NCBI RefSeq assembly: GCF_037198315.1
Contig: NZ_CP144913.1
Span: forward strand, 2,976,001 to 3,040,000
Origin: Janibacter sp. A1S7
GTDB taxonomy: Bacteria; Actinomycetota; Actinomycetes; Actinomycetales; Dermatophilaceae
Length of the DNA: 64,000 nucleotides
Direction of reading: 5' to 3'
The translations under genes were made by a program, and so were the position numbers. Shown in pieces: positions 18,167 through 44,179 of the stretch. The notes beneath the pieces were generated by a model. That model worked only from the letters and a program-made list of their open reading frames with translations, was not told the origin of the DNA and made no database searches. Numbering within the stretch: position 1 is the stretch's first letter; each line of letters opens with the position of its first letter.

Positions 18167-19600
18167 ATGTCCTCTCGTCATCGCCTGTCCGTGCACGACC
18201 TGCTCGACCGGGTGTTCGATCCCGGGTCGTTCGACTCGTGGGACCGACCCATCGACATCAGTGGGCACCCGCAGGACTACCGGGCAACACTGCGCCGCGC
18301 CGCTGAACGGGCCGGAACCGATGAGTCGGTGGTCACCGGCAGCGCACGCGTGCACGGACGCCCGGTGGCCGTGATCGCCAACGAGTTCTCCTTCCTCGCC
18401 GGCTCGATCGGCGCTGCCGCCGCCGACCGGATCGTCCACGCCGTCCGACGGGCCACCGCCGAGGGACTGCCACTGGTGGCCTCCACGGCTTCCGGCGGTA
18501 CCCGCATGCAGGAGGGCACCCCGGCCTTCGTGCACATGGTGACGATCTCGCGCGCCCTGATGGACCACCGGGACGCGGGCCTGCCCTACCTAGTGCACCT
18601 ACGCCACCCCACCACCGGAGGAGTGCTTGCCTCGTGGGGATCACTGGGTCACATCACCGTGGCCGAGCCCGAGGCCCTGGTCGCCTTCCTCGGACCGAAG
18701 GTGTACGAACAGCTCGAAGGGCGACCCTTCCCCCCGGGGGTTCAGGTCGGCGAGAACCTGGTCCAGCACGGCATCATCGACGCCGTCGTCCCGACCGAGG
18801 ACCTGCCGCGCCTGCTGGACCGCACCCTCGGCCTGCTGCTGGACCCACCGGCTCCCTCCACGCGCCGGGAGCGTCCGACACCGACGACCCGGCGCCGGTC
18901 CTCGTGGCAGTCCGTCGAGCTGACCCGCGAGCCGGATCGTCCCGGGGTGCGCGACCTGCTGCGCCACGGCAGCGATGCCATCGTGCGGCTGCAGGGCACC
19001 GACGAGGGCGAGCGTGACACCGCGATGCTCGTCGCGGTCGCCCGCATCGACGGGGTCGCCTGCGTCGTCATCGGCCAGGACCGGGCCCATCAGTCCCCGT
19101 CCTCGCCCATGGGCCCGGCGGCGCTGCGCGAGGCACGCCGCGGCATGAAGCTGGCCAACCAGCTGCGCCTGCCGCTCGTGTCCGTCATCGACACCCCGGG
19201 CGCAGAGCTGTCCCAGCGGGCCGAGGAGGGCGCCATCGCCGGCGAGATCGCCCGGTGCATCGCCGGCATGACGACGCTCACCGTCCCCAGCGTCTCGGTG
19301 CTGCTCGGTCAGGGCTGCGGGGGTGGCGCGCTCGCCCTCCTCCCGGCGGATGCCACGATCGCCGCCGAGAACGCCTGGCTCTCCCCGCTGCCCCCGGAGG
19401 GCGCCAGCGTCATCGTCCACGGTGACACCACGCACGCGCCGCAGATGGTCGAGCAGCAGAAGGTCTCCGCATTCGAGCTGATGGAGACCGGGACCGTCAG
19501 CCGGATCATCCCCGAGACGGCCACCGACACCCCCGAGGACTTCGCCGATGCCGTCGCCGCGTCGATCGGCGCACGCCTGCGCGAACTCAGTGGGGACTGA
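18167..19600 (+). CDS. fused acyl-CoA carboxyltransferase (AccD/AccA-like)
   Basis: A 477-residue protein with two crotonase-fold carboxyltransferase halves. The N-terminal half (about 10-235) is beta-like: FAGSIGAAAADRIV-type helix, LPLVASTASGGTRMQEG, ITVAEPEALVAFLGPKVYE. The C-terminal half (about 250-477) is alpha-like: GRDRAHQSPSSPMGPAALREARRGMKLANQLRLPLVSVIDTPGAELS and GQGCGGGALALLPAD. It transfers a carboxyl group between biotin and an acyl-CoA. The Cys4 zinc finger of bacterial AccD is absent and no biotin carboxylase or BCCP is nearby, so its acyl-CoA is uncertain. It converges with xdhC, overlapping its end by 14 bp. Confidence 0.85.
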   Translation: MSSRHRLSVHDLLDRVFDPGSFDSWDRPIDISGHPQDYRATLRRAAERAGTDESVVTGSARVHGRPVAVIANEFSFLAGSIGAAAADRIVHAVRRATAEGLPLVASTASGGTRMQEGTPAFVHMVTISRALMDHRDAGLPYLVHLRHPTTGGVLASWGSLGHITVAEPEALVAFLGPKVYEQLEGRPFPPGVQVGENLVQHGIIDAVVPTEDLPRLLDRTLGLLLDPPAPSTRRERPTPTTRRRSSWQSVELTREPDRPGVRDLLRHGSDAIVRLQGTDEGERDTAMLVAVARIDGVACVVIGQDRAHQSPSSPMGPAALREARRGMKLANQLRLPLVSVIDTPGAELSQRAEEGAIAGEIARCIAGMTTLTVPSVSVLLGQGCGGGALALLPADATIAAENAWLSPLPPEGASVIVHGDTTHAPQMVEQQKVSAFELMETGTVSRIIPETATDTPEDFADAVAASIGARLRELSGD

Positions 19601-20741
19601 CCGGCTCCTGCCGCCCCTCGGCGTGGATGTCGTGCCCGGTGCTGCGTAGCTCGCGGCCCGATCCGCCCCAGCGCAGGGCGATGATCTCGGCGGCGATGGC
19701 CACTGCGGTCTCCTCGGGGGTCCGCCCGCGCAGGTCGAGACCGATCGGGCTGTGGAAGCCTGCGAAGTGCTCCTCCCCCAGCCCGACCTCGCGCAGGCGC
19801 TCGAGCCGGTCCTCGTGCGTCCGGCGCGACCCCATCGCGCCGATGTAGAACGGCCGCTGCCGCCCTTCCAACCGCAGGGCGATGTCCAGCACCGGCACGT
19901 CGAACTTGGGGTCGTGCGTCAGGACGCACACCACCGAGCGGTTGTCGATGCGTCCGGCGTCGAGCTCCCGCTGCAGGTACCGGTGCGGCCAGGAGACGAC
20001 CACCTCGTCCGCCTCCTTGAAACGCTCCCGGGTGGCGAAGAGCGGACGCGCATCGCACACCGTCACGTGGTACCCGATGAGCGCTCCCTGGCGGGCGACC
20101 GCCGCGGCGAAGTCGATCGCGCCGAAGACGATCATCCGCGGCCGGGGCTGGAAGGACGACACGAAGACCGACATGCCGCTGTCCATGCGCTGGCCCTCGG
20201 GCCCGTAGGCGAGGATCGCGTTCGTCCCTGCTGCCAGCAGGCCCTGGACGTCGTCGGCCACGGCATGGTCTGCGTGGTCATTGCCCAGGGTGCCCTCCGT
20301 CGTATCCGGACGTACCACCAGCCGACGACCCAGCCACGCCGGATCGGGGTGCTCGATCACCGTCGCCACCGCCACCGGACGCCCGTGCCGGATGTCCTCG
20401 GCGACGGTGCCGAACTGCGGGAAGGTCTCGCGACTGACCGGCTCGACGAAGACGTCGATGATCCCCCCGCAGGTCAGCCCGACCGCGAAGGCGTCGTCGT
20501 CGCTGAACCCGTAACGCTCCAGGACCGGCGTCCCGGTGGCCACGACCTCCTCGGACAGCTCGTAGACCGCGCCCTCGACGCAGCCGCCGGAGACCGACCC
20601 CGCAGCGCTGCCGTCCGGGAGCACGACCATGGCCGCTCCGGGCAGTCGGGGCGCCGAGCGGATCGTGTTCACCACGGTCGCCAGACCGGCCACGCCCCCT
20701 TCCTCCCACGCAGACACGACGTCGTCCAGAACATCACGCAT
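19587..20741 (-). CDS. XdhC/CoxF-family molybdenum cofactor maturation protein
   Basis: A 384-residue XdhC-family protein. The N-terminal XdhC/CoxI domain contains GLATVVNTIRSAPRLPGAAMVV and GSVSGGCVEGAVYE. A C-terminal Rossmann domain (about 200-350) includes PRMIVFGAIDFAAAVARQGALIGYHVTVCDAR and FYIGAMGSRRTHEDRLERL. XdhC proteins bind and sulfurate the molybdenum cofactor and insert it into xanthine-dehydrogenase-type hydroxylases. It overlaps the VWA gene by 8 bp and ends the leftward moxR-coxE-xdhC cluster. Its probable client is the Mo hydroxylase encoded at 33-37 kb. Confidence 0.9.
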   Translation of the reverse strand: MRDVLDDVVSAWEEGGVAGLATVVNTIRSAPRLPGAAMVVLPDGSAAGSVSGGCVEGAVYELSEEVVATGTPVLERYGFSDDDAFAVGLTCGGIIDVFVEPVSRETFPQFGTVAEDIRHGRPVAVATVIEHPDPAWLGRRLVVRPDTTEGTLGNDHADHAVADDVQGLLAAGTNAILAYGPEGQRMDSGMSVFVSSFQPRPRMIVFGAIDFAAAVARQGALIGYHVTVCDARPLFATRERFKEADEVVVSWPHRYLQRELDAGRIDNRSVVCVLTHDPKFDVPVLDIALRLEGRQRPFYIGAMGSRRTHEDRLERLREVGLGEEHFAGFHSPIGLDLRGRTPEETAVAIAAEIIALRWGGSGRELRSTGHDIHAEGRQEPVSPH

Positions 20742-21846
20742 CGCGCACCACCTCCATCAGTTCCGCGAACGCTGCCAACGAGTGGCCGGCAACCAGACCG
20801 TCGAGGAAGGGCATCGCCGCCTTGATGCCTCCCTGTACCGGAACATACCCCGGCTTGCCGCGGTGCGGGTTGGCCCAGACGATGGCGTGCGCCAGCAGTC
20901 GCAGGCGACCCACCTGCTCCCCCAGGAGCGTGGCGCCCCCGCGCTCCCACCCATCGCTGGCGATCACCACGACGGCGCCGCGGGCCACGCCACGCTGCCC
21001 CCACCGGTCCACGAAGGCCTGGAGCACCTCACCCAGCCGAGTGCCGCCGGACCAGTCCGGCACCAGGGACCCCACGCTCGCGAGCGCCTCCTCGGGGTCG
21101 GCCTGGCGCAGCGCCGGCGTCACGCGGGTCAGGCGGGTGCCGAGTGTGAAGACCTCGGTCGTGCGGGGCGCCGCGCCGACCATGCGATGGGCCAGGCGCA
21201 GCAGACTGTCGGCGTAGGGCTGCATCGAGCCCGAGACATCGATCAGGACGACCACGCGCCGGGGCCGCGACCGGCGCGACCGGCGACGCAGCGGACCCGG
21301 CTCACCCCCACGACGCAACTGGTCACGCACGGTCCTGGCGATGTCGATGTCGCCACGCCTGGCCGGGTAGCGACGTCGCGACCGTCGCTGGGGCCCGCGC
21401 GCATCGAGCCGCGCCAGCATGGCGTTGACCCGTCGCCGCTCCGCGGCGCTCAGTTCGGCCACGTCCCGGTGCCTCAGCTGCTCCACCGGTGAGGCGGTCG
21501 CCGCCACCGCGTCCTCCTGGGCGTCAGAGGAGCCGGAGTCGTTCTCGTCCTCGCCGAAGGCCTCCGCCGACGCGCGGACCTCGGTCGTCGGTGACCCTCT
21601 CCCACCATCGACGAGCTCGGCGACGAACCACGACCGGAAGACCCGGTCATAGGTGGGGATGTCATCCGGCTCGTCGCACAGCGTCGCCCGACCGGCCCAG
21701 TAGACGTCGTCCCGGGAGCCGGCGTCCAGCCGGCTGATGGCCTCGATGAAGTCCTGGGCCCGCCGGGTGCGCACCCCGGCAGCACGCAGCGCCCGCGTGA
21801 AACCGACGAACCCCGTGATCGGGTCGGCCGGCTGCTCGGGTGCCAC
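20734..21846 (-). CDS. CoxE-like VWA domain protein
   Basis: A 370-residue protein whose C-terminal half (about 195-365) is a von Willebrand factor A domain, with MIDAS motif VVVLIDVSGSMQPYADSLL. The N-terminal half is charged and holds an Arg-rich linker. CoxE pairs with the MoxR-type ATPase CoxD in maturing the molybdenum centre of aerobic Mo hydroxylases. The start is GTG 21846, placed 7 bp after the ATPase stop, with TGAGG just upstream. There is no ATG in the region between the ATPase stop and this codon. Confidence 0.88.
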   Translation of the reverse strand: MAPEQPADPITGFVGFTRALRAAGVRTRRAQDFIEAISRLDAGSRDDVYWAGRATLCDEPDDIPTYDRVFRSWFVAELVDGGRGSPTTEVRASAEAFGEDENDSGSSDAQEDAVAATASPVEQLRHRDVAELSAAERRRVNAMLARLDARGPQRRSRRRYPARRGDIDIARTVRDQLRRGGEPGPLRRRSRRSRPRRVVVLIDVSGSMQPYADSLLRLAHRMVGAAPRTTEVFTLGTRLTRVTPALRQADPEEALASVGSLVPDWSGGTRLGEVLQAFVDRWGQRGVARGAVVVIASDGWERGGATLLGEQVGRLRLLAHAIVWANPHRGKPGYVPVQGGIKAAMPFLDGLVAGHSLAAFAELMEVVRDA

Positions 21847-21853
21847 GCCGACC

Positions 21854-22732
21854 TCAGTCGCTGATGATCTGGTCGAGCGCGGAGCGCACCCGCTCGGTGT
21901 CCTCGCGGTACTTGCACAGGGCGCCGATCGTGGCCGAGGCCGACTCCAGGTCCAGGTCGGCGCGACCGAGCTCGTGCAGGGCGCGCGCCCAGTCGAGTGT
22001 CTCCGCCACACCCGGGGGCTTCATCAGGGACCCCTCCGCGCGCAGTCGTTGCACCACGTGCACGACCCGCTCGGCGAGCCGCTCGCTCACCTGCGGCAGT
22101 CGGCTGCGGACGATCGCCGTCTCGCGCGCCAGATCAGGATGCTCGATCCAGTGGTAGAGGCAGCGACGCTTGAGCGCATCGTGCAGCTCCCGGGTCCGGT
22201 TCGAGGTCAGCACGACGATCGGGGGCTCCGTCGCCCGGACCGTCCCGATCTCGGGGATGGAGACCTGATACGTCGAGAGCACCTCGAGCAGGAAGGCCTC
22301 GAACTCGTCATCGGCACGGTCGATCTCGTCCACGAGCAGGACGGCGGGACTGCCGCGCAGGGCCTGCAGGATCGGTCGCGTCAGCAGGAAACGCTCGTCG
22401 AAGAGGGACTCCTCGGTGGCCCGCAGGTCACCCGCGGCGCCGACCGCCTCGACGGCGCGCAGGTGCAGGATCTGGCGGGTGAAGTCCCAGTCGTAGAGGG
22501 CCTGGGTGGCGTCGATCCCCTCGTAGCACTGCAGGCGGATCAGGGGCAGGTCGAACGACTGCGCCAGGGCCTCGGCGAGGGCCGTCTTGCCGGTACCCGG
22601 TTCGCCCTCCAGCAGCAGCGGCCGTTGCATGGCCACGGCGAGGTAGGCGATCGTCGAGACGCCCTCGTCGGCGAGGTACCCGACCTCGCCGAGCTGGGCA
22701 CGCATGCTGGCGGCGCTGTCGGGGGTGGTCAC
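21854..22732 (-). CDS. MoxR-family AAA+ ATPase (CoxD-like)
   Basis: A 292-residue AAA+ protein. Walker A is LLLEGEPGTGKTALAEALA (about 40-58), Walker B is AVLLVDEIDRADDEFEAFLLEVL, and an arginine/sensor region is seen in LTSNRTRELHDALKRRCLYHWIEHPD. MoxR ATPases act as chaperones with VWA partners; CoxD is needed for cofactor maturation of Mo hydroxylases. It starts at GTG 22732. It is the first gene of the moxR-coxE-xdhC group and lies 93 bp after the CoA-transferase gene, on the same strand. Confidence 0.9.
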   Translation of the reverse strand: MTTPDSAASMRAQLGEVGYLADEGVSTIAYLAVAMQRPLLLEGEPGTGKTALAEALAQSFDLPLIRLQCYEGIDATQALYDWDFTRQILHLRAVEAVGAAGDLRATEESLFDERFLLTRPILQALRGSPAVLLVDEIDRADDEFEAFLLEVLSTYQVSIPEIGTVRATEPPIVVLTSNRTRELHDALKRRCLYHWIEHPDLARETAIVRSRLPQVSERLAERVVHVVQRLRAEGSLMKPPGVAETLDWARALHELGRADLDLESASATIGALCKYREDTERVRSALDQIISD

Positions 22733-22825
22733 GCGCTCATCCTAGGTGCGTGACCGTGCCTCCCGGCCGACGCCGCCACCCGCCGGTCCTCGTGACTGCT
22801 CATCAAGGAGCTCCCATCCACCCGG

Positions 22826-24034
22826 CTACCGGCCGGTGTCGTCCTCGGTCTCGGCCAACCAGGTCCGAATCGACTCGTTGTGCTGGCCCAGGGTCGGCGG
22901 GGCGATGTGCTCCCGTCGTGCCCCGGCGTAGTCGTTGTCGTCCAGCCGCAGGACGGGTCCGGGCAGCGCCAGGCGGCCCTTCGTCGCGTGGTCGACCTCG
23001 ATCCGCAGGCCCTGGGACAGGGCCTGATCCCACTGGTAGACCTCATCGAGGGTGCGCACCTTGCCGGAGGGGACCCCGACGTCGGTGAGCACCTCGAGCC
23101 AGTGCTCGGCGCTCTCCTCGGCGAAGATCCCCTCGAGCAGGGCGATCAGCTCGTCCTTGTGTGCCACGCGGTCGCCGTTCGTGGCGAAGCGGGCCTCGGC
23201 CGGGTCGAGCCCGAGCGCCGGGGCGAACCGCTGCCACAGCGACTCGGAGCCACACGAGAGCTGAATCGGTGCCGTGGCGGTGTGGAACAACCCGTAGGGG
23301 GCGATGGACGGGTGGTGTGAACCGGACAGGCCCGGCACCTCGCCCCCGACGGTCCACCGGGTGCCCTGGAAGGCGTGGATGCCGACGACGCTCGCAATCA
23401 GCGAGGTGCGTACCACGCGGCCACGGCCGGTGCGCTCGCGCTCGTAGAGGGCGGCCACGGCCCCGTAGGCACCGTTCATGCCCGCCAGCAGGTCGGCGAT
23501 CGGCACGCCGACCTTCGTCGGCTCGTCGATCCCGGTCAGGCTCATCAGCCCGGCCTCACCCTGGGCGATCTGGTCGTAACCCGCCCGGGTGGCCTCGGGC
23601 CCGTCATGACCGAAGCCGGTGATGGACAGGATGACCAACCGGGGGTTGAGCTCGTGCAGGTGCTCGACGCTGAATCCCAGCCGGGCCAGCACACCGACCC
23701 GGAAGTTCTCCATCAGCACATCGGCCCGGCGCACCAGCCGGGTCATCACCTCGCGGTCGTCCTCGTCCTTGAGGTCGAGGGTGATCGACTCCTTGTTGCG
23801 GTTGGCCGACATGAAGTAGGTGGACTCGCGGTCCTCCCCCTCGCCGAGGAAGGGAGGGCCCCAGCCGCGGCTGTCGTCGCCGGTGGGGCTCTCGATCTTG
23901 ATGACCCGGGCGCCCATGTCGCCGAGCATCATGCCCGCGTGGGGGCCGGCGAGCGCCCGGGTCATGTCCAGGACCAGGGTCCCGGACAGTGGCCCGGCGC
24001 CCGCCGACGCCGCGGTGACGTCGCCGTCAGTCAC
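22826..24034 (-). CDS. CaiB/BaiF-family (class III) CoA transferase
   Basis: A protein of about 402 residues with the class III CoA transferase fold. Signatures are LVLDMTRALAGPHAGMMLGDMGARVIKIE, FMSANRNKESITLDLK, and RAGYDQIAQGEAGLMSLTG, in which the aspartate is the expected acyl-anhydride-forming residue. It moves CoA between carboxylic acids. The start is GTG 24034 or TTG 24040; the latter directly abuts the upstream stop. Its immediate link to the ring-opening amidohydrolase suggests it activates the released acid. If that acid is malonate, the product is malonyl-CoA, but substrate specificity cannot be read from sequence. Confidence 0.88.
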   Translation of the reverse strand: MTDGDVTAASAGAGPLSGTLVLDMTRALAGPHAGMMLGDMGARVIKIESPTGDDSRGWGPPFLGEGEDRESTYFMSANRNKESITLDLKDEDDREVMTRLVRRADVLMENFRVGVLARLGFSVEHLHELNPRLVILSITGFGHDGPEATRAGYDQIAQGEAGLMSLTGIDEPTKVGVPIADLLAGMNGAYGAVAALYERERTGRGRVVRTSLIASVVGIHAFQGTRWTVGGEVPGLSGSHHPSIAPYGLFHTATAPIQLSCGSESLWQRFAPALGLDPAEARFATNGDRVAHKDELIALLEGIFAEESAEHWLEVLTDVGVPSGKVRTLDEVYQWDQALSQGLRIEVDHATKGRLALPGPVLRLDDNDYAGARREHIAPPTLGQHNESIRTWLAETEDDTGR

Positions 24035-24040
24035 GCGCAA

Positions 24041-25147
24041 TCAGCCCATGTCCACGATCGCCGCGACGGGCCCGCCACCCTCGGGGCCCTGGTGGGCTGC
24101 GGAGACCGAGACGAAGACGGCCGGGTCGCCGGTCACCGCGGCGGTGACCCCACCGACGGCAGCCTTGATCTGGCGGTGCCAGTGGACGTCCGAGTCGTCG
24201 AGCATCGCGTTGCGGCGACCTCGCACGTGTCCGTCCTGGCTGGTCTCGCACTTGAGGAAGACATTGACCAAACGGTCATCAAGGTCCGAGGGGTGCGGCC
24301 GCTCCGGGAGCTCCAGACCGGCGTCCCGGATCGCCTCCCAGATGCCGTCGGCGTCGAGGGCGTCGTCCATCACGGAGTGGCCGATGCGGTAGTTGCCACC
24401 GATGCCGCGGGCGTTGCCGACGACGACGACCTGGGCGCGGTCCAGCTCCACACCGGAGGAGCAGGAGGCCACCGCGGAGTAGAGGTCACGGTTCTCCAGC
24501 ACGTCGGCGTCCGTCGGCATCTCGATCTCACCGAGCGCGACGGCGATGCCCAACGCGGTCACGCCGTTGGACAGGTCCATCGACTTCAGCGTGTCGTCGG
24601 TCCAGACGCTCTTGCCACGGCTCTTGGCATCGCGGATGGTGTCGATCGTCAGCAACGGCGTCTTGGTCTGGACGTAGTGGACGTCGGCCGGATCGGTGAT
24701 GCCGGCCCGCTCCATCGCGTCCTTGACCGCCACCGCGACCTTCTCGATCATCGGCGTGCGCCCGATCTCCTCCGGCAACAGCTGGTCGCTCATGGCGAAG
24801 CCCACGGACAGGCGCGGCTCGTCCGTGGCCGTGGTCTTCTCCTCGGGCAGGGTGGCGAAGATGGTCGCGTGGGGGCTGATGACGCCGTCGGTGCCACCGG
24901 ACCAGACGATCGGGATCTGGCGCACCTCCTCCTCGGAGCGGGTGCCCTTGTCCTGGATCACCTCACGGAAGGCACGGTCGGCGATGATGCGGGTGTAGTC
25001 GTTGACTCCGCCGTTGCCCTCGGTCTTGCCGATGATGGCGATGACGCGGTCGGCCTCCATGACGCCGCCGTCGATGAGCGTGGCCAGCTCACTGGCGTCG
25101 GCCACGGAGTGGATCGGGACCTTGCGGACTTCGATTGCAGATGGCAT
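24041..25147 (-). CDS. ring-opening amidohydrolase (barbiturase / cyanuric acid amidohydrolase family)
   Basis: A 368-residue enzyme of the small barbiturase/cyanuric acid amidohydrolase family, which folds as three similar domains each giving a Ser-Lys pair around one active site. Visible elements are [17 protein letters not shown] and [14 protein letters not shown] in domain 1, [10 protein letters not shown] and [14 protein letters not shown] in domain 2, and [21 protein letters not shown] and [18 protein letters not shown] in domain 3. It hydrolyses a cyclic ureide: barbiturate to ureidomalonate, or cyanurate to carboxybiuret. Motifs do not decide between them; the neighbours favour barbiturate. 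I chose ATG 25147, which has GGAAGG 8 bases upstream, over ATG 25153. Confidence 0.9.
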
Positions 25148-25205
25148 TGGCATGTCCTTCCGTTGTACTGGCTGGATCGGTGGTGGTGCGGGTGCGGACT
25201 GTTGC

Positions 25206-26144
25206 TCACCGGGCGGGCACGACACGCGTACCGGCCCGGGACTCGATGGCAGCGGTGATGCGGTCGAGCGAGGTGATCACGCCCGTCCCCGTGCCGGACT
25301 CGGCGAAGGTGGTCACGGCCTCGACCTTGGGTCCCATGGACCCGGCGGCGAAACCCTGCTCGGCGGCGATGGTGCGCATCTCCTCGGTGGTGACCTCGTC
25401 GATCGGGTGCGCCGACGGGGCCCCCCAGTCGGCGACGACCGCGTCGACGTCGGTGGCGATGACGAGATAGTCGGCCGCCACCTGCTGGGCGATGAGGGCT
25501 GCGGTCAGGTCCTTGTCGATGACCGCTTCGACCCCGACGTAGGCGCCGTCGGAGTCCTTGATCGTGGGGATGCCGCCGCCGCCGGAGCAGACGACGACGT
25601 AACCGGCGCTCATCAGCGCGTCTGCGGTCGGCCCGTCGAGGCACTCCACCGGAGAGGGCGAGGCCACGACGCGGCGCCAGCCACGGTCCTCGACCTCGAT
25701 GAACTGCTGCCCCTGGGCCATCAGCGGACGGGCGTCCGCCTCGGTGAGGTACCGCCCGATGGGCTTGGTGGGCTCCACGAAGTGCTCGTCCTGCGCATCC
25801 ACCAGGGTGCGCGAGACCAGTGCGGCGCTGCGCCGGTCGACACCTCGGGCAGCGAACGCCTCGTCGAGGGCGTTCAGCAGGAGCATGCCGATCGTCGCCT
25901 GCGTCTGGGCGCCGCACCAGTCCAACGGCACGGGTGGCACGTGCCCCGCCGTGAGCTCGTTCTTCACGAGCAGGTTGCCGACCTGGGGGCCGTTGCCGTG
26001 GGTGAGCAGCACCTCGTGGCCGGCCGCCACGAGGTCGACGATGGGACCGGCGGCGCGCCGGATCGCATCCCGTTGGTCGCCGGGCCGGGCACTGCCGTCC
26101 TCGGCGGTCATGGCGTTTCCGCCCAGAGCAATCACGAAGCGCAT
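25206..26144 (-). CDS. arcC: carbamate kinase
   Basis: A 312-residue carbamate kinase of the amino acid kinase fold. Landmarks are VIALGGNAM (substrate loop), [41 protein letters not shown] and [12 protein letters not shown]. It makes ATP, CO2 and NH3 from carbamoyl phosphate and ADP in catabolic pathways. No arginine deiminase genes are here, so the carbamoyl phosphate probably comes from the AllFGH-like transcarbamoylase encoded at 40.4-44.1 kb. The start ATG 26144 has AAGG 8 bases upstream; a GTG codon lies three codons earlier. It is followed 58 bp later by the ring-opening amidohydrolase. Confidence 0.93.
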
Positions 26145-26229
26145 GTGATGCACCTTACGAGTCGACCGGATGGGCCCGCATGGTCAACAGATGCCGAGTT
26201 CGCGGCTGTGGGAGGCAGGTGTTGCCAAG

Positions 26230-31084: not shown

Positions 31085-31136
31085 CTGTGCAGCCTCCTGG
31101 TTGTCGTTGCCGTCACATCCCATCGCGCTGGAGGCG

Positions 31137-32609: not shown

Positions 32610-32619
32610 GGCCGCCTCC

Positions 32620-35675: not shown

Positions 35676-36184
35676 GATGCCTCCTCCTCGCGCTGGATCT
35701 CGGCCGCGCGCAGCACCGACGCCACGATGTTCTGGTACCCGGTGCACCGGCACAGATTGCCGGCGATCATGTCGCGGGCGTCCTCCCGGTCGGGGTCGGG
35801 GTTGTCCCGGATGCCCGCAGCGATCGTCGTCAGGAACCCGGGCGTGCAGAATCCGCACTGCAGCCCGTGGCAGTCCTTGAATGCCTGCTGCACCGGGCTG
35901 AGGCTGCCGTCCTCGTGGGTGAGCCCCTCGACCGTGGTCAACTCGACGTCCTGGGCACCGACGGCGAACATCAGGCAGGCTCGCGAGGGCGCTCCGTCGA
36001 CGAGGATGGTGCAGGCACCACACACCCCGTGCTCACATCCCACGTGTGTTCCGGTCAGACCGATGTCGTGACGGAGCGCGTCGCTGAGCAGACGGCGTGG
36101 CGGAACGACGATGTCGTGGGTGACTCCGTTGACGTGCAACCGGACGGGCACCGTCTCTTCGCTGGTTGGTTCGGACATGGTCAT
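35672..36184 (-). CDS. molybdenum hydroxylase 2Fe-2S subunit
   Basis: A 170-residue electron-transfer subunit with two [2Fe-2S] clusters. The plant-ferredoxin-like N-terminal domain has CEHGVCGACTILVDGAPSRAC, and the C-terminal four-helix domain has LQCGFCTPGF and NLCRCTGYQNIV. It passes electrons from the Mo site to the FAD subunit. The start at ATG 36184 (MTMSEPT) overlaps the FAD-subunit stop by 4 bp; ATG 36178 is an alternative. FAD, FeS and Mo subunits are translationally coupled in the CoxM-S-L order. Confidence 0.93.
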   Translation of the reverse strand: MTMSEPTSEETVPVRLHVNGVTHDIVVPPRRLLSDALRHDIGLTGTHVGCEHGVCGACTILVDGAPSRACLMFAVGAQDVELTTVEGLTHEDGSLSPVQQAFKDCHGLQCGFCTPGFLTTIAAGIRDNPDPDREDARDMIAGNLCRCTGYQNIVASVLRAAEIQREEEAS

Positions 36185-37068
36185 GAACTCACCTTCTGCG
36201 CCGCTCTGGCGCGTGCGTCGTCCTGCGCGGCCTTCAGCACGCGCGCGGTGAGCGCACGCGCCAGTTGCGCGCGGTAGTCGGCCGTGCCGTGGATGTCGGA
36301 CTCCGGGTCGAGCTGCCCCACGGCCATCTCCCCCGCGGCGGCCAGTGTCCGAGCGGTCATCTCGCCGTCCGGGAAGCACTCGGTCAGGTCGACGACGGCG
36401 GGGGTCTCGGAGACCGAGACGTAGCCGGCACGGACGTGCTCGACCGAGCCGGCCCCGTCGAGGGCGACCACCGCGCCCACGCCACAGAGGGCGTAGTCGC
36501 CGTGTCGACGAGCGACCTCGTCGAAGGCGACCCCGCTTCCCGCAGGGAGGGCAGGCACGAAGGCCTCGACAGCGATCTCGTCGGCCGCCAGGCTCGTCTC
36601 CAGGGGCCCGACGAAGAGGTCCCGCGCGGCGATCTCCCGACGTCCACGGGATGAGGCCACCGTCAGGGTCCCGTCGGCGAGGCGCAGGATCATCGGCATC
36701 TCACCCGAGGCATCGGCGTGGACGATCGAACCCACCGTCGTCCCGCGGTTGCGGATGGTCGGGTGCGCCACGTGCCGCAATGCCGCAGCGAGCAACGGCT
36801 GGGCCGCCGCGGCACCCTCGTGCGCCAGCAGGTCGCTGTGCCGCACGAGGGCACCGAAGCGCACTCCCGAGTCATCGACGGTGACCCGGGCCAGGTCCGG
36901 CAGACCGTTGATGTCGATGAGCACGGGCACCGAGCTCAGCCGCATGGACAGCAAGGGCACCAGGCTCTGGCCACCGGCCAGGACCTTCGCCTCGGGTTCC
37001 TGCGCGAGCAGGTCGAGGGCCTCGGTCAGGGACGTGGGACGTCTGTAGGTGAAGGGTGCTGGTTTCAC
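36181..37068 (-). CDS. molybdenum hydroxylase FAD-binding subunit
   Basis: A 295-residue CoxM/XdhB-type flavoprotein subunit. FAD-binding motifs are AKVLAGGQSLVPLLSMRL (about 28-45) and ATIRNRGTTVGSIVHADASGEMP, with the CO dehydrogenase flavoprotein C-terminal domain from about residue 175. It accepts electrons from the 2Fe-2S subunit and hands them to quinone, NAD or oxygen. The start GTG 37068 overlaps the permease stop (GTGA), so uptake and oxidation are encoded in one transcript. Confidence 0.92.
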   Translation of the reverse strand: MKPAPFTYRRPTSLTEALDLLAQEPEAKVLAGGQSLVPLLSMRLSSVPVLIDINGLPDLARVTVDDSGVRFGALVRHSDLLAHEGAAAAQPLLAAALRHVAHPTIRNRGTTVGSIVHADASGEMPMILRLADGTLTVASSRGRREIAARDLFVGPLETSLAADEIAVEAFVPALPAGSGVAFDEVARRHGDYALCGVGAVVALDGAGSVEHVRAGYVSVSETPAVVDLTECFPDGEMTARTLAAAGEMAVGQLDPESDIHGTADYRAQLARALTARVLKAAQDDARARAAQKVSS

Positions 37069-38456
37069 GTGTAGGTCGGGTCCGTTTCTTCAGCTGGCTT
37101 GTTGTCGATGTCGTGAGCCTTGCCCTTGACCATGTGGTAGAGCCCCACCACGAGGATGGTGCCGAAGGCGATGCCGCTGAGCTGGAAGTCGTCGGTGATG
37201 TTCAGCGTGACGTCACCGATACCGACGATCAGGCCCGCGGCCAGCGGCACGATGTTGACGGGGTTGCCGAAGTCGACCCGGTTGTCGACCCAGATCTTGG
37301 CGCCGATCAGGCCGATCATTCCGTAGAGCACCACGGTGATGCCGCCGAGGACCCCGCCGGGGATGGCGTTGATGATGACGCCGAACTTCGGCACCAGGCC
37401 GAGGATGATCGCGACGATCGCGGCCACGTAGTACGCGGCGGTCGAGTAGATCCGGGTGGCCGACATGACGCCGATGTTCTCCGCGTAGGTCGTCGTGGGC
37501 GAGGCACCCACCGAGCTGGCGATGGCCGTCGCCAGACCATCCGCACCCAGCGCGCGGCCCATGTAGGGGTCGAGGTCGTCGCCGGTCATCTCCGCGACCG
37601 CCCGCACGTGGCCGGTGTTCTCGGCGATGAGCGCGATCACGCCGGGCAGTGCCAGCAGGACGAAGACGAAGGAGAAGCTGGGGCCGTGGATCGCGGAGAC
37701 CCCGTCGGCGAGTTGTCCGCTCGGCAGGCCGAACCACGCCGCGTCGCCCAGACCCGCCAGATTCACGCGGTCGTGCGCGATGGCCTCGCCACCGCTGGTC
37801 GGAGTGACGGAGGTGATCGGTCCGAAGACCAGGTCGGCGATCCAGGAGGCGGCAAAGCCGAAGACGAGACCGAGGAAGACCGCGATACGTGCCCAGAAGC
37901 CGGGGAAGAGAACGGCTCCGGACACGAGGAAGAGTGTGGTCAGGATCGCGATCCACTGGTCCTGCGGCCAGTAGACGTTGGCCACGACCGGAGCGAGGTT
38001 GAAGCCGATCAACATGACCACGGCGCCGGTGACCGCGGGCGGAAGCACCTTCTTCAGCATGCCCGGACCCGCGAAGTGGACCATGACGCCCACCAGGCCC
38101 ATGACGATGCCGGCTGCCATGATCGCGCCGGTGACGTCGGCCGAGTCACCGCCCTGGGCACGGATCGCCGCCACGACACCGACGAACGCCGCGCTGGTAC
38201 CGAGGTAGCTGGGAACCCAGTTCTTGACGATGACCAGGAAGAGGATCGTCATCAGGCCGGAGAACAGGATGGCGAGGTTGGGGTCCAGCCCCATCACCAC
38301 CGGGAAGACGAAGGTGGCGCCGAACATCGCGACGACGTGCTGCACGCCGATGCCGATGGTGCGGCCCCAGCTCATTCGTTCGTGGGGCCCGACCGATTCA
38401 CCCGGAGGAGGGGTCTTGCCGCCGTGGACCTCGGTCCACTGGAAAATGCTCGCCAT
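37065..38456 (-). CDS. NCS2 nucleobase permease, uracil (UraA) type
   Basis: A 463-residue permease with about 14 helices of the NCS2/NAT family. TM1 contains the conserved QH motif (VQHVVAMFGATFVFP). The TM10 signature is TTYAENIGVMSATR with E326-N-I-G. Uracil permeases (UraA, PyrP) carry Glu at this position, while characterised xanthine and urate carriers carry Gln; IALIAENTGHVRA parallels the UraA TM8 glutamate region. This favours a pyrimidine substrate. It is the first gene of the leftward operon, 180 bp from pucR, and overlaps the FAD-subunit gene. Confidence 0.9.
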   Translation of the reverse strand: MASIFQWTEVHGGKTPPPGESVGPHERMSWGRTIGIGVQHVVAMFGATFVFPVVMGLDPNLAILFSGLMTILFLVIVKNWVPSYLGTSAAFVGVVAAIRAQGGDSADVTGAIMAAGIVMGLVGVMVHFAGPGMLKKVLPPAVTGAVVMLIGFNLAPVVANVYWPQDQWIAILTTLFLVSGAVLFPGFWARIAVFLGLVFGFAASWIADLVFGPITSVTPTSGGEAIAHDRVNLAGLGDAAWFGLPSGQLADGVSAIHGPSFSFVFVLLALPGVIALIAENTGHVRAVAEMTGDDLDPYMGRALGADGLATAIASSVGASPTTTYAENIGVMSATRIYSTAAYYVAAIVAIILGLVPKFGVIINAIPGGVLGGITVVLYGMIGLIGAKIWVDNRVDFGNPVNIVPLAAGLIVGIGDVTLNITDDFQLSGIAFGTILVVGLYHMVKGKAHDIDNKPAEETDPTYT

Positions 38457-38522
38457 GAGGTACTCCTAGAAGAAGAGCGGTAGCCGCTGCGGTGGCCTGA
38501 GCCTAGTGCGGAGAATCACACA

Positions 38523-38578: not shown

Positions 38579-38612
38579 GCGGCAGCCGTGCGGATCGAGC
38601 CTGACGCGCCTA

Positions 38613-38634
38613 CACCTGAGCGCTGGTTCAGGTG
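38613..38634 (-). terminator. probable terminator of pucR
   Basis: CACCTGA (38613-38619) and TCAGGTG (38628-38634) form a 7-bp stem with an 8-nt loop directly after the pucR stop codon. No clear U-run follows on the minus strand. Confidence 0.5.
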
Positions 38635-38636
38635 TT

Positions 38637-40295: not shown

Positions 40296-40362
40296 CACAA
40301 TGTGGTCATCCGATCTCAGATCCTTGGCAACTTCTGCCTTCAACGAGGCTAGCAGGACCGGA

Positions 40363-40408
40363 TACCGTCCCAGACATGACCATGTCGAGGCCGTCGTGTC
40401 CACAGTGA
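40363..40408 (+). other. leaderless mini-ORF coupled to the allH-like gene
   Basis: A TANNNT hexamer (TACCGT, 40363-40368) lies 7 bp before ATG 40376, which opens a ten-codon frame, MTMSRPSCPQ. Its TGA (40406-40408) overlaps GTG 40405, a possible start of the allH-like gene (GTGA). This suggests a leaderless peptide that couples or attenuates translation of the operon, though a ten-codon frame may be coincidental. Confidence 0.35.
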
Positions 40409-41214
40409 CCCGGGTAGAGCTCGCCGCAGCGGCGCCCCGGTGGGTTCGCGACCTGCTCGCCGCCGGCAGCGGCGAGGCGACCGTCGTCCACGCCGGCCCC
40501 GACGCCCTGTACCTCGCACTGGACTCGGACGTCCTGGCCATCACCACCCGAGCTGCCGTCCAGGTCCCCTGCGCCCTGCGCACCACGCTGAGCACGACGG
40601 CCGACCTGTCCGCGTCCGGGGAGGTCCCCCCGGTGGGCACGGCGATACCGATCGTCGCCCGCAGGGTGCACCTCAGCGGCGCCACCGTCCGCATCGGACG
40701 CACGATCGACACGACGGCGCCGCGGATCGACCCGGCGACCGCCCCGGCCATGGCCGAGCGACTGTCCGCGGCCCTGGGGCCGGGGCACGCACGAGCCCGT
40801 GCCGAGCTGCCGGAGGCCGGGCTCGGGCTGCTCGAGGCGGCCGAACCCGATGCCGTCGTCGCCCTGCTCGGCCGGGGCAGCGGTCTGACCCCGGTGGGGG
40901 ACGACGTGCTCTGCGGTTGGTTGGCCACCATGGTCGCGGCCTCCTATCCGGGCGTCGCCCCCGTGGCCGAGCGGGTCATCGACCTCGCGGACCACCGAAC
41001 GACCGCGCTGTCGGCGACGCTGCTGCGCCGCTCGGTCCACGCCGAGGTCGTGCCCCAGTTCGGGCAGCTGCTGACCGCGCTCGCCCACCCGTCCACCAAC
41101 CCCGCAGAGTCCCTGGCGAGCGTCACCCGGATCGGCCACACCTCCGGAGACGGGCTCGTCCTCGGACTCGCCCTCGCCCTCGCCCACCTCGCACCAAGGA
41201 GTAGTTGCACATGA
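40405..41214 (+). CDS. allH: DUF2877 protein, AllH (YlbF)-like transcarbamoylase subunit
   Basis: A 269-residue DUF2877 protein. The C-terminal half holds the family motifs LLGRGSGLTPVGDDVLCGWLATMV and RIGHTSGDGLVLGLALALAHL, which correspond to GLTPSHDD and GHTSGADTLLG in E. coli YlbF/AllH. In E. coli AllF, AllG and AllH together form oxamate (oxalurate) transcarbamoylase. The start is uncertain: GTG 40405 overlaps the stop of a mini-ORF; GTG 40396 is three codons earlier with GAGG at 40387. It is divergent from pucR, and its stop overlaps the allF-like start (ATGA). Confidence 0.82.
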   Translation: MTRVELAAAAPRWVRDLLAAGSGEATVVHAGPDALYLALDSDVLAITTRAAVQVPCALRTTLSTTADLSASGEVPPVGTAIPIVARRVHLSGATVRIGRTIDTTAPRIDPATAPAMAERLSAALGPGHARARAELPEAGLGLLEAAEPDAVVALLGRGSGLTPVGDDVLCGWLATMVAASYPGVAPVAERVIDLADHRTTALSATLLRRSVHAEVVPQFGQLLTALAHPSTNPAESLASVTRIGHTSGDGLVLGLALALAHLAPRSSCT

Positions 41215-42716
41215 CGAATTCACCCGGCGAAGCCGGTTTCACCCACGTCGAGCGCCGTCCCGGGGCGTACGCCGACTCCGTCGCCCTGCTGCAGGTGAGC
41301 AAGGACGTCGCCGCGGTCGACGGCGTCCGCGCCGCCCAGGTCGCGATGGCCACACCGTTGAACCTGGACGTCATCGCCTCGATGGGCTTCGACCTGCCGG
41401 AGACCTCCCCGAACGACATGGTCGTGGCCGTCCGTCTGGACGACGAGAGCCGTCTGGACGCCGCCCTGGCCGCCGTCGACGCCGCTCTGGCCGCCGTGAC
41501 CAAGCGGGGCGGGTCCTCGGAGAGCAGCGAGGAGGCCCCCCGCACCATCGGCACCGCGATCAAGCGCACCGGTACCGCACTGGCGCTGGTCTCCGTACCG
41601 GGGCCCAACGCCACCGTCGAGGCCATGGACGCGCTCGACGCCGGACAGGACGTGCTCATCTTCAGCGACAACGTGCCCGTGGAGCAGGAGGTCGCCCTCA
41701 AGCGCATCGCCAGCGACCGGGACCTGCTCGTCATGGGACCCGACTGCGGCACCGCGATGGTCGACGGAGTCGGTCTCGGGTTCGCCAACACGGTCCGGCC
41801 CGGGCCCGTCGGCATCGTCGCAGCCTCCGGGACCGGCTGCCAGCAGCTGATGTGCCTGCTCGACCACGCAGGCGTCGGCATGACCGCCGCGCTCGGCGTG
41901 GGCGGTCGGGACCTGAGCACCGAGGTCGGCGCGCTGGCCACCCGCCAGGCGATGCGTCGACTTGACGCCGACCCGTCCACCGAGCTGATCGTCGTGGTCT
42001 CCAAGCCGCCCGCGGAGGACGTCGCCGGCGAGCTGCGCGCCTACGCCGAGACGCTCGCCACCCCGGTGCACTTCGCCCTCCTCGGCGCCGGCCAGCCTGA
42101 CCTGACCGCATCGGCGGAGGCGATCCTGACCACCCTCGGCCGGACGGTTCCGCAGTGGCCGATGTGGGGATCGGCCCCCGAGCAGGTCTCCTCCGGTCGG
42201 CTGCGCGGCCTCTTCGCGGGGGGCACCCTCTGCGACGAGTCGATGCTCCTGGCCAGCGAGAGCCTGGGGCCGGTGCACAGCAACATCCCCCTCGACCCGG
42301 CCCACGCACTCGACTCCTCCCTGACCGCCGAGGGCACCGTGATGATCGACTTCGGTGATGACTCGATGACGGCCGGACGCGCCCACCCGATGATCGACCC
42401 GACCATCCGGATGGACCACCTGGCCCGGACCGCGGCGGACCCGGAGTGCTCGGTCGTCCTGATGGACGTCGTCCTCGGGCACGGCGCCGACGCCGACCCG
42501 GCCGCCACCGCCGCCCCGGCCATTCGGGAGGCCATCGCCTCCGCGCAGGCGGACGGCCGTCGCCTGGCGGTTCTCGTCTCCTGCGTCGGCACCGCCGACG
42601 ACCCCCAGGTCCTCAGCACCCAAGCGCAGGCGCTGGCCGACGCCGGCGCCGAGGTCCACCTCTCCAACGCCCGGGCCACCCGCCGGGCCCTGACGCTGAT
42701 CGGAGCCGCATCATGA
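41211..42716 (+). CDS. allF: FdrA/AllF-like transcarbamoylase subunit (CoA-ligase fold)
   Basis: A 501-residue FdrA-family protein. The CoA-binding-like domain contains VMGPDCGTAMVDGVGLGFANTVRPGPVGIVAASGTGCQQL (about 177-217). The ligase domain follows, with GRAHPMIDPTIRMD about 70% along, as in succinyl-CoA-synthetase-like folds. The E. coli homologue FdrA (AllF) is a subunit of oxamate transcarbamoylase, phosphorolysing a carbamoyl amide to carbamoyl phosphate. ATG 41211 has AAGGAG nine bases upstream. Both ends overlap neighbouring genes by 4 bp (ATGA), so the three subunits are made stoichiometrically. Confidence 0.88.
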   Translation: MTNSPGEAGFTHVERRPGAYADSVALLQVSKDVAAVDGVRAAQVAMATPLNLDVIASMGFDLPETSPNDMVVAVRLDDESRLDAALAAVDAALAAVTKRGGSSESSEEAPRTIGTAIKRTGTALALVSVPGPNATVEAMDALDAGQDVLIFSDNVPVEQEVALKRIASDRDLLVMGPDCGTAMVDGVGLGFANTVRPGPVGIVAASGTGCQQLMCLLDHAGVGMTAALGVGGRDLSTEVGALATRQAMRRLDADPSTELIVVVSKPPAEDVAGELRAYAETLATPVHFALLGAGQPDLTASAEAILTTLGRTVPQWPMWGSAPEQVSSGRLRGLFAGGTLCDESMLLASESLGPVHSNIPLDPAHALDSSLTAEGTVMIDFGDDSMTAGRAHPMIDPTIRMDHLARTAADPECSVVLMDVVLGHGADADPAATAAPAIREAIASAQADGRRLAVLVSCVGTADDPQVLSTQAQALADAGAEVHLSNARATRRALTLIGAAS

Positions 42717-44131
42717 CGACGACCCACACCAGCCTCGAGACCGGGGTCTCCTCCGCGGGTGTCGGCATCTTCGCCGACGCCCTGGATGCCCAGGCCGTTC
42801 CCGTCACCCGCGTCGACTGGCGCCCCCCGATGGCGGGCACCGAGGCCGACCTGGCCACGGTCGTCACCGACCCCCTTCGCGCCGAGGCGAACCGTCGTGC
42901 CGTCGAGGCGGTCCTGGCGGTGCAGGCCATGGTCGTCGACGTCGCCCCGGCCCACGAGGTGCTCGGCCTGCAGAAGGGCGAGTTCCTCCACGCCGGACCC
43001 CCGCTGAGCTGGGAGAACGCCTCCGGTCCGATGCGCGGGGCCCTGATGGGAGCCGCCGCCCTCGAGGGCCTCGTGGAGGACCCCGAGGACGCCGAGGCAC
43101 TCTTCGCCTCGGGAGAGGGAGTCAGCCTGGCGCCCTGCCACAGCCGCCGCGCCGTCGGCCCGATGGCCGGCGTCGTCTCGCCGTCGATGTGGATGTGGGT
43201 CCTGGAGGACCCCGAGGACGGTCGCCGGACGTACTGCTCCCTGAACGAGGGACTGGGCAAGGTCCTGCGCTACGGCGCCTACGCGCCCGAGGTCCTCGAG
43301 CGCCTGCGGTGGATGTCGCGGACGCTCGGTCCACTGCTGGCCGAGGCGGTCCGGGCGACGGGGCCCATCGACGCCACGGCCATCCTCGGTCAGATGCTCC
43401 AGATGGGCGACGAGGCGCACAACCGCAACCGCGCCGGGACCCTGATGCTCCTGCGGGACCTGGCGCCGGCACTGGTGACATCCGATGCCGACCCGTCCGA
43501 CGTCGCCGAGGCCTTGGCGTTCATGGGCGGCAACGACCACTTCTTCCTCAACGTCGCCATGCCGGCGTGCAAGCTCCAGCTCGACGCGGCGCGCGGTATC
43601 GAGGGATCGACCATGGTGGTCGCGATGGCCCGCAACGGCACCGAGTTCGGCATCCAGGTCGCCGGGACGGACGACGAGTGGTTCACCGGGCCGGCGCAGA
43701 TCGCCGACGGCCTCTTCCTGGGTGACTTCGGTCCCGAGGACGCCAACCCCGACATCGGGGACTCGGCGATCACCGAGACCGCCGGGATCGGCGGGTTCTC
43801 GATGGCGACCGCGCCGGCGATCGTCCGGTTCGTCGGCGGGTCGGTGCCCGACGCGTTGGCCACCACGCGCCGAATGGGTGAGATCACCCTGGCGGAGAAC
43901 AACCGCTGGGCGATCCCGGTGCTGGAGTTCATGGGTGCGCCCACGGGTATCGACGTCACCAAGGTCTGCCGGACCAGCATCCTCCCGCAGATCAACACCG
44001 GCATGGCCGGCCGCCTCGCCGGGGTCGGTCAGGTGGGCGCCGGCCTCGTCACGCCGCCCGGGGAGATCTTTCCCAAGGCCCTCGCCGCGCTGGCCACCAG
44101 GACCCGTTCCCGGGCGGACCGGTCCGGCTGA
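42713..44131 (+). CDS. allG: DUF1116 protein, AllG (YlbE)-like transcarbamoylase subunit
   Basis: A 472-residue DUF1116 protein matching the YlbE/AllG family. Landmarks are VTRVDWRPPMAG near the N-terminus, HAGPPLSWENASGPMRGALMGA, MGDEAHNRNRAGTLMLLRDLAP, and MGGNDHFFLNVAMPACK. In E. coli it is one of the three subunits of oxamate transcarbamoylase. It is the last gene of the operon and is followed by a strong hairpin. The substrate here is predicted to be ureidomalonate rather than oxalurate, by pathway context only. Confidence 0.88.
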   Translation: MTTTHTSLETGVSSAGVGIFADALDAQAVPVTRVDWRPPMAGTEADLATVVTDPLRAEANRRAVEAVLAVQAMVVDVAPAHEVLGLQKGEFLHAGPPLSWENASGPMRGALMGAAALEGLVEDPEDAEALFASGEGVSLAPCHSRRAVGPMAGVVSPSMWMWVLEDPEDGRRTYCSLNEGLGKVLRYGAYAPEVLERLRWMSRTLGPLLAEAVRATGPIDATAILGQMLQMGDEAHNRNRAGTLMLLRDLAPALVTSDADPSDVAEALAFMGGNDHFFLNVAMPACKLQLDAARGIEGSTMVVAMARNGTEFGIQVAGTDDEWFTGPAQIADGLFLGDFGPEDANPDIGDSAITETAGIGGFSMATAPAIVRFVGGSVPDALATTRRMGEITLAENNRWAIPVLEFMGAPTGIDVTKVCRTSILPQINTGMAGRLAGVGQVGAGLVTPPGEIFPKALAALATRTRSRADRSG

Positions 44132-44146
44132 GCCCACGCATGTACC

Positions 44147-44179
44147 GCGCCGCTCCGACCCGTGGGGTCGGGGCGGCGC
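44147..44179 (+). terminator. terminator after the allHFG-like operon
   Basis: A 15-bp stem (44147-44161 with 44165-44179, one G-U pair) with a 3-nt loop follows the allG-like stop by 15 bp. It is succeeded by a short pyrimidine run, CTCTTT. This is the best intrinsic terminator in the window by form. Confidence 0.75.

Follow-up and report, generated by a model that had tools for sequence, protein, structure and literature searches.

The oxidative degradation of pyrimidines has been described in Rhodococcus as a pathway of uracil/thymine dehydrogenase, barbiturase and ureidomalonase. In the sections of PMC3758960 that treat it, the route is said to end in malonate and urea, formed via ureidomalonase, and urea is also the described product of the oxidative route in the corresponding part of PMC7662398. 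A second system with related parts is E. coli AllFGHK, an oxamic transcarbamylase together with a catabolic carbamate kinase; the part of PMC11326118 concerned with AllFGH gives its reaction as oxamate + carbamoyl phosphate <-> oxalurate + Pi. We have analysed a locus with counterparts in both systems, located in a stretch of 64,000 nt from Janibacter sp. A1S7 (NZ_CP144913.1, assembly GCF_037198315.1, positions 2,976,001-3,040,000 of the forward strand; 71% GC), referred to below as the window. Our best reading of this DNA is that the region would form a single co-inherited unit, common to many actinobacteria, for the catabolism of uracil and probably of thymine. Within it, an AllFGH-type enzyme probably splits ureidomalonate by phosphorolysis and a carbamate kinase regains ATP, instead of urea being released.

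On the minus strand the window has, in order, genes for XdhC, CoxE, MoxR, a family III CoA transferase, a member of the AtzD/barbiturase family, carbamate kinase, an NmrA-like protein, HyuB, HyuA, an amidase, CoxG, the subunits of a Mo/FeS/FAD hydroxylase, an NCS2 permease and a PucR regulator; genes for AllH, AllF and AllG lie on the plus strand, divergent from pucR. These gene families, with their order and strands, had been named in a first-pass annotation of the DNA, and all were found again in Pfam and NCBIfam scans and in frames read from the sequence; among the 4-bp overlaps it mentioned, ATGA was read at both the allH/allF and the allF/allG junction. As in the xanthine dehydrogenase family, the hydroxylase has Mo, FAD and 2Fe-2S subunits accompanied by the maturation genes xdhC and coxG, and the adjacent AllF, AllG and AllH genes correspond to those of an oxamic transcarbamylase, with PF06545 and PF11392 over cut-off. 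The gene block recurs in several actinobacterial families, and the order NCS2-pucR followed by divergent allH-allF-allG was seen again in eight fetched loci (L129, L131-L136 and L153).

Comparison with the described systems reveals both likenesses and differences. R. erythropolis NBRC 15567 also has a barbiturase ortholog, 84% identical to the window protein, near genes for Mo hydroxylase subunits, HyuA, NCS2 permease, PucR, CoA transferase and carboxyltransferase (locus L017), whereas the window has AllFGH, carbamate kinase and an in-cluster amidase in place of the amidase that adjoins barbiturase in Rhodococcus; neither AllG nor a strong carbamate kinase was found in the NBRC 15567 genome. 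With E. coli AllFGHK the window shares the three subunits and a carbamate kinase, and an analogous reaction is to be expected, but the gene order differs, the kinase lies in the opposite operon, and the set is bound to barbiturase and Mo hydroxylase genes rather than to allantoin genes. The predicted substrate also differs, since ureidomalonate is longer than oxalurate by one CH2. The cyanurate pathway (AtzD/TrzD with AtzE or BiuH, then AtzF) uses the same family of ring-opening enzymes, though with other specificity residues. The Rut and reductive uracil pathways start from the same base, and the window permease is RutG-like, but their chemistry and enzymes are different. The locus appears to be a variant of the oxidative pyrimidine pathway, built from known enzyme families plus one new predicted reaction.

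In the part of PMC3758960 that deals with specificity, barbiturases (group VI) are distinguished by Asn195, His321, Lys325, Val345 and Ser/Ala346 (AtzD numbering), and cyanuric acid hydrolases (groups I-III) by Arg195, Thr321, Arg325, Gly345 and Gly346. We read N, H, K, V and S at these positions of the window protein, i.e., all 5 of the barbiturase residues and none of the 5 cyanurate residues. An 81-row alignment of the window protein with those of 80 near-ortholog loci (the closest of 501 found, on which all counts of 80 rest) gave 78 rows with NHKVS, 2 with NHKVA and 1 with NHKIA, N-H-K-V-S/A being present in 80 of the 81. The closest solved relative, with 679 bits, is PDB 5hwe, 'Barbiturase'; the top-scoring cyanurate enzyme reaches 326. 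Also, in 8 Rhodococcus loci barbiturase has a uracil phosphoribosyltransferase gene 0.1-3 kb away, which points to uracil. The distance is at most 0.2 kb in L014, L016, L017 and L020, approximately 1.2 kb in L024 and approximately 3 kb in L029, L033 and L036; in 4 of the loci the two genes are direct neighbours. An enzyme acting on cyanurate instead, with AllFGH or the amidase then acting on biuret or carboxybiuret, would agree with the NCBIfam model for cyanuric acid amidohydrolase, NF052395, which was over cut-off at 24041-25225 (484 vs 360); set against the residues, the solved relative and the uracil salvage gene of Rhodococcus, such an activity is scarcely credible. We rejected it because the specificity residues are barbiturase-type in the window, its near orthologs and the class sample described below. 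The assignment as barbiturase is strong by sequence, in agreement with the first-pass claim that barbiturate and not cyanurate is opened. Since NF052395 is over cut-off on a barbiturase-type protein, annotation by that model would mislabel such genes.

Co-occurrence was examined in 246 genomes of the class, sampled evenly and at least 90% complete (the class sample). The barbiturase/cyanurate family was present in 61 genomes and AllG in 63; both occurred in 56, the family alone in 5, AllG alone in 7 and neither in 178 (Fisher's p = 2e-41, kinship not corrected for). The 5 specificity residues were read in all 61. Barbiturase-type signatures were found in 57 genomes, which bear twelve family labels (37 NHKVS, the window included, 19 NHKVA and 1 NYKVS, in G066), and 4 had only cyanurate-type or other signatures (RTRGG in G075, RTRGG and N-KGG in the two copies of G128, N-KGG in G133 and G153). 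AllG accompanied the barbiturase-type enzyme in 56 of the 57, but was present in none of the 4 genomes whose family members are all of other types and in 7 of the 185 without the family. With an E-value limit of 1e-200, the Mo subunit had orthologs in 56 of the 57 barbiturase-type genomes (missing from G066) and HyuB in 55 (missing from G227 and G233), each also in one other genome, G291; barbiturase, AllG, Mo subunit and HyuB were all present in 54. Where barbiturase and AllG lay on one contig (n=35), 28 pairs were less than 50 kb apart, six were 90-133 kb apart and one 1.7 Mb apart; another 21 pairs were on different contigs. Because 7 of the 35 same-contig pairs lie 90 kb to 1.7 Mb apart with both genes retained, the pair is kept even where unlinked, and we rejected chance neighbourhood as an explanation.

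A second comparison covered 48 genomes, obtained by searching 50 of the 80 loci, together with the window's own genome (the host). These 49 comprise 39 genomes with linked-type AllG, host included, and 10 of Rhodococcus or Tomitella. The window proteins are 38% (AllF), 47% (AllG) and, over part of the length, 33% (AllH) identical to those of E. coli. Phylogenetic analysis of 56 AllG rows with IQ-TREE placed the 43 Bar-linked rows in one clade (support 100/99), outside which fell the paralogs and E. coli AllG, with which they did not group; the L136 row was short, several paralog rows were on long branches, and L142-L148 were left out. This arrangement bears on the alternative that AllFGH is an ordinary oxalurate enzyme of purine or allantoin breakdown, standing beside a pyrimidine operon since one PucR controls both. 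PucR, the NCS2 permease and the Mo hydroxylase would also suit purines, oxalurate is what E. coli AllFGH makes in the reaction given in that part of PMC11326118, and 19 of the 39 AllFGH genomes do have an allantoinase. Yet the host has no allantoinase over cut-off (best 234 bits vs 358; other allantoin genes were not searched for), nor do 19 others of the 39, and AllG goes with barbiturase-type enzymes while it is absent from the 4 genomes with only cyanurate-type or other members. Because allantoinase is missing and the clade is separate, we lowered the oxalurate explanation, which now appears very unlikely. The first-pass annotation had proposed a search for barbiturase, AllFGH and carbamate kinase occurring together without allantoinase; the outcome was largely positive, in that the three did occur together, and 20 of the 39 genomes, including the host, had no allantoinase over cut-off while 19 had one.

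Two side observations concern AllFGH itself. The Bar-linked AllG clade has 15 peculiar positions (42 vs 19 rows), and M228, Q230, R240, L244 and M245 are near the invariant G232, D233, H236 and R238; these five are possible substrate-specificity residues, which is suggestive only. AllF, AllG and carbamate kinase also occur without barbiturase, in L142 (G051), L143 (G188), L144 (G148) and L145 (G195); the L142 set adjoins an isochorismatase-family gene (neighbours were looked for in L142 only). AllFGHK has been reported beside biuret hydrolase in nitrifiers, in the part of PMC12625717 that concerns it, and AllFGH together with the kinase would seem to be a cassette that serves several ureides.

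The genes next to barbiturase divide the relatives into two groups. Carbamate kinase is directly upstream of barbiturase in 67 of the 80 loci; the 13 loci without an adjacent kinase are L010, L063 and eleven from Rhodococcus or Tomitella. An amidase about 40% identical to that of the window lies directly downstream of barbiturase in ten of the eleven, Tomitella (L031) being the exception. These ten amidases are 77-100% identical to the R. erythropolis one, which no other of the 80 loci matches at 55% or more. L021 has carbamate kinase and yet has a window-type amidase (60%) downstream of barbiturase. No amidase adjoins barbiturase in the window, where the flanking genes are those for carbamate kinase and CoA transferase; such an amidase is our presumed marker of the Rhodococcus-type ending. 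AllG was found in 39 of the 48 genomes, namely in all 38 outside Rhodococcus/Tomitella and in R. jostii, whose AllG is a lower-scoring paralog outside the Bar-linked clade. A strong carbamate kinase was present in 38 of the 39 linked-AllG genomes (not G038) vs 1 of the 10 Rhodococcus/Tomitella genomes (G023). Of 36 genomes in which the positions of kinase and AllG were compared, 34 had both on one contig, separated by 9.2-37.8 kb (median 20 kb), and G029 and G037 had them on different contigs. The 36 exclude the window, in which the distance is 18 kb, G038, which has no kinase, and G004, whose only strong kinase is beside a second AllG. A full urease match was obtained in 8 of the 39 linked-AllG genomes, host included, vs 9 of the 10 Rhodococcus/Tomitella genomes (p = 1e-4), with G011 (partial match) and G006 (weak match with a stop) left out. 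Ureidomalonase has reportedly been described in R. erythropolis, and since the described route ends in urea via that enzyme, the barbiturase-adjacent amidase of Rhodococcus is a candidate for its gene. In a different arrangement, locus L137 (G233) has an NHKVA enzyme without AllG or a close HyuB, adjoining a glutamine-synthetase-like gene and a P450 gene; this is perhaps a third ending of the route.

The amidases inside the cluster provide another line of evidence. In the window the amidase gene sits between coxG and hyuA, and of the 39 AllFGH genomes 25 carry a window-type amidase, 62-79% identical, inside the cluster (window included; the G025 gene is split into two pieces of 66 and 58%, and those of G028 and G034 carry one internal stop). 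In 11 others of the 39 the cluster contains instead a nitrilase-family enzyme with 64-100% identity to the L013 one. One of these two unrelated amidases is therefore in the cluster in 36 of the 39 genomes and both in none; G006 and G042 have a 56-57% amidase elsewhere in the genome. In L017 and L020, the two Rhodococcus loci that show both coxG and the start of hyuA, neither type was found between them. Because two unrelated enzymes fill one place, an amide intermediate such as malonamate is suggested, which would be hydrolysed in the cluster. The match of the window amidase to malonamidase E2 is distant (89 bits to 1ock, vs 208 to the best amidase).

These same enzymes could be read differently, as the ureidomalonase of the textbook oxidative route: the in-cluster amidase, or the nitrilase elsewhere, would give malonate and urea, and AllFGH and the kinase would act on some different ureide while sharing the regulator. 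In favour of this, NF005686 (cut-off 465) is matched by the window amidase at 465 bits and by the barbiturase-adjacent amidase of R. erythropolis, about 40% identical to it, at 713 bits; solved relatives of the nitrilase include N-carbamoyl hydrolases; and the host has urease. Against this, AllG accompanies barbiturase even where unlinked, as the class sample showed, carbamate kinase adjoins barbiturase in most loci whereas the type of amidase varies, and a full urease match is found in only a fifth of the AllFGH genomes (8/39). Moreover, the R. erythropolis type of amidase (at least 77%) is confined to 10 of the 80 loci, all of them Rhodococcus without carbamate kinase beside barbiturase. We regard the textbook ending as rather unlikely for the window, and phosphorolysis of ureidomalonate remains the reading that we follow.

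The route that we propose would run as follows. The NCS2 permease would import the base, and the three-subunit Mo/FeS/FAD hydroxylase, matured by XdhC, CoxE, MoxR and CoxG, would oxidize it to barbiturate. (A role of the MoxR-type ATPase in Mo-enzyme maturation is one that we presume from the cox family.) Barbiturase, the assignment of which is strong by sequence, is predicted to open the ring to ureidomalonate, and the AllFGH-type carbamoyltransferase, operating in the phosphorolytic direction, would convert ureidomalonate and phosphate to malonamate and carbamoyl phosphate, a step for which the support is comparative. Carbamate kinase, by its family function, would then form ATP, ammonia and CO2 from carbamoyl phosphate and ADP, and the in-cluster amidase would hydrolyse malonamate to malonate and ammonia. 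Finally, CoA transferase and carboxyltransferase may take malonate through malonyl-CoA to acetyl-CoA, or methylmalonate to the propionyl-CoA pool. The Rhodococcus version would have the same front half and end in the barbiturase-adjacent amidase, the candidate ureidomalonase, with release of urea.

Several observations weigh against this proposal. HyuAB is as conserved as the core and accompanies the Mo subunit in both endings, and yet has no step in the route. The host has urease, as do 7 other AllFGH genomes (plus the partial match in G011 and the weak one with a stop in G006), so that a urea branch is possible in the host. Family membership alone would name oxalurate as the substrate of AllFGH, ureidomalonate being our prediction, and the 19 AllFGH genomes with allantoinase belong on the same side of the balance. 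The nitrilase superfamily, judged by solved structures, includes N-carbamoyl hydrolases as well as amidases, and from its family the nitrilase could be of either kind; the in-cluster amidases could therefore act on ureidomalonate itself. Individual genomes also depart from the pattern: G038 has AllFGH without a strong carbamate kinase; the only strong kinase of G004 is on another contig, beside a second, paralogous AllG; G038, G041 and G042 have neither amidase in the cluster; G233 has a barbiturase-type enzyme without AllG; and Tomitella (L031/G017) lacks AllFGH, the barbiturase-adjacent amidase and urease alike. Furthermore, the counts take in related genomes, the class sample overlaps partly with the 49 genomes, and the 80 loci are only the closest ones. 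The first-pass annotation had put forward essentially the phosphorolytic route, and comparative support for it was strong; its interpretation is only partly supported because the activity is predicted, HyuAB was given no step, the carboxyltransferase was missed and the host has urease.

With regard to HyuAB, the related caprolactamase is thought, in the pertinent part of PMC8453981, to convert its lactam into an activated lactim that is phosphorylated or carboxylated. By analogy, activation of uracil by HyuAB would fit the ATP economy, although this is speculation. We lean, with less assurance than for phosphorolysis in the window, toward a wider view: that ureidomalonate + phosphate <-> malonamate + carbamoyl phosphate, a reaction that we did not find assigned to any gene, is the usual fate of barbiturate in actinobacteria, that oxidative pyrimidine breakdown would normally give ATP and ammonia, and that the urea version is a special case of Rhodococcus and its kin. 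The ATP from the kinase may then repay that spent by HyuAB, which possibly converts the base to an activated lactim phosphate ahead of its oxidation or in the course of it. Among the matches listed in a search of the open-access literature, no paper linked barbiturase to carbamate kinase or AllFGH. In G291 (contig C35, 80547-87843), orthologs of the Mo subunit (65%) and HyuB (79%) lie near each other, and this genome has neither barbiturase nor AllG; the pair may be helpful for finding the function of HyuAB.

The region between the divergent pucR and allH genes contains the motif GATCCTTGGCAACTTCTG, a candidate operator. For comparison, 19 loci were tried for the stretch upstream of pucR and 10 gave one, making 11 with the window. 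The core TTGGCAA was present in 8 of these 11, distant relatives included, TTGGCAG was found in L156, and the core was absent from L129 (where the start is probably misplaced) and from the nearest relative, L157. The GATCCTTGGCAACTTCTG pattern was drawn from the window, so that its match there is by construction. No second copy was found in the window at up to 3 mismatches, a genome scan for the 13-base core with one mismatch gave 7 matches vs 8 for the reversed control, and among 8 Rhodococcus loci scanned with one mismatch, 4 had none and 4 had scattered matches. A PucR regulon with several operators was not borne out, given the single copy in the window and no genome excess over the control. 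The motif suits one control region for both halves of the unit, without showing regulation.

The coordinates of all features are given in Table 1. The genes within the extent that the first-pass annotation assigned to the cluster were correct, but its left edge at 19587 leaves out the carboxyltransferase gene, whose product probably acts on malonyl-/methylmalonyl-CoA. This protein is 78% identical to the product of a gene adjoining CoA transferase in Janibacter corallicola (L006) and 53% identical to one adjoining CoA transferase in R. erythropolis (L017), and its gene is just downstream of allG in three genomes (L086, L088 and L091). These neighbourhoods tie the carboxyltransferase to both halves of the unit.

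At 71% GC, mechanical long open reading frames (ORFs) run too far at several starts. In the GC-rich loci of relatives the ORF caller also took antisense frames; clusters of very long ORFs were removed by eye, and only ten plausible representative ORFs were scanned against Pfam. For the CoA transferase, the nearest NCBIfam models are succinate-glutarate and oxalate CoA-transferase, all under cut-off, and for HyuA the nearest is caprolactamase CapA, also under cut-off. Carbamate kinase is over cut-off for NF009007 (294.6 bits, cut-off 266), under it for TIGR00746 (335.5, cut-off 358.25) and 38% identical to E. coli AllK; ARAGORN called a tRNA-Ala antisense within this gene (25992-26081), which is probably spurious. 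The 2Fe-2S subunit has a 65% match in L017, adjoining the other two hydroxylase subunits.

Table 1. Features of the window and, in the last row, the Rhodococcus barbiturase-adjacent amidase
Feature	Coordinates	Strand	Evidence
Fused AccD/AccA-type carboxyltransferase	~18167..19600 (ORF 17993-19600)	+	PF01039, 189 bits
XdhC/CoxI, Mo-cofactor insertion	19587..20741	-	PF13478, PF02625
CoxE-like VWA protein, Mo-enzyme maturation	20734..22011 (ORF bounds; start provisional)	-	PF05762, 175 bits
MoxR-type AAA ATPase	21854..22732	-	PF07728
CoA transferase family III, proposed malonate -> malonyl-CoA	22826..24040	-	PF02515, 381 bits
Barbiturase	24041..25225 (true start probably near 25153)	-	679 bits to PDB 5hwe; N-H-K-V-S signature
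Probable catabolic carbamate kinase	25206..26153	-	PF00696; NF009007
NmrA-like NAD(P)-binding protein	26230..27048	-	PF05368 in open frame
HyuB, ATP-dependent hydantoinase/oxoprolinase subunit	27048..28988	-	PF02538, 442 bits
HyuA, ATP-dependent hydantoinase/oxoprolinase subunit	28985..31123	-	PF01968, PF05378, PF19278
Amidase-signature amidase, proposed malonamidase	31194..32609	-	PF01425, 339 bits
CoxG	32620..33258	-	PF06240
Mo subunit of hydroxylase, proposed uracil/thymine dehydrogenase	33255..35672 (start near 35672)	-	PF02738, PF20256, PF01315; NF040766, 1479 bits
2Fe-2S subunit of hydroxylase	35672..36184	-	open frame read from sequence
FAD subunit of hydroxylase	36181..37068	-	PF00941, PF03450
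NCS2 permease, RutG-like	37065..38456	-	PF00860; best NCBIfam model RutG, 347 bits, under cut-off 759
PucR-family regulator, 552 aa	40295-38637 (most likely)	-	PF07905, PF13556, PF17853; start from sequence
Motif GATCCTTGGCAACTTCTG, candidate operator	40319..40336	.	between pucR and allH
AllH-like subunit, 272 aa	~40396..41214	+	PF11392, 77.9 bits
AllF (FdrA)-like subunit	41211..42716	+	PF00549; NF004760 FdrA, 407 bits (cut-off 433, under)
AllG-like subunit	42713..44131	+	PF06545, 319 bits; matches PDB 3clq
Barbiturase-adjacent amidase (R. erythropolis); same place in L014, L016, L020, L024, L029, L033, L036, L038, L070	L017:11245-12738		NF005686 (scored in L017)

The steps of the proposed route can be tested with simple chemicals, namely barbiturate, malonamate and carbamoyl phosphate. 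If the proposal is true, the oxidative pyrimidine pathway would be completed with genes, and there would be candidates for uracil/thymine dehydrogenase (the Mo hydroxylase), for ureidomalonase (the Rhodococcus barbiturase-adjacent amidase) and for a new carbamoyltransferase reaction. The oxalurate label that is put on AllFGH genes by homology, as in the part of PMC12625717 that treats them, may then often be wrong. Pyrimidine use in this class of soil bacteria would also have a different balance of energy and nitrogen, yielding ATP and ammonia instead of urea.

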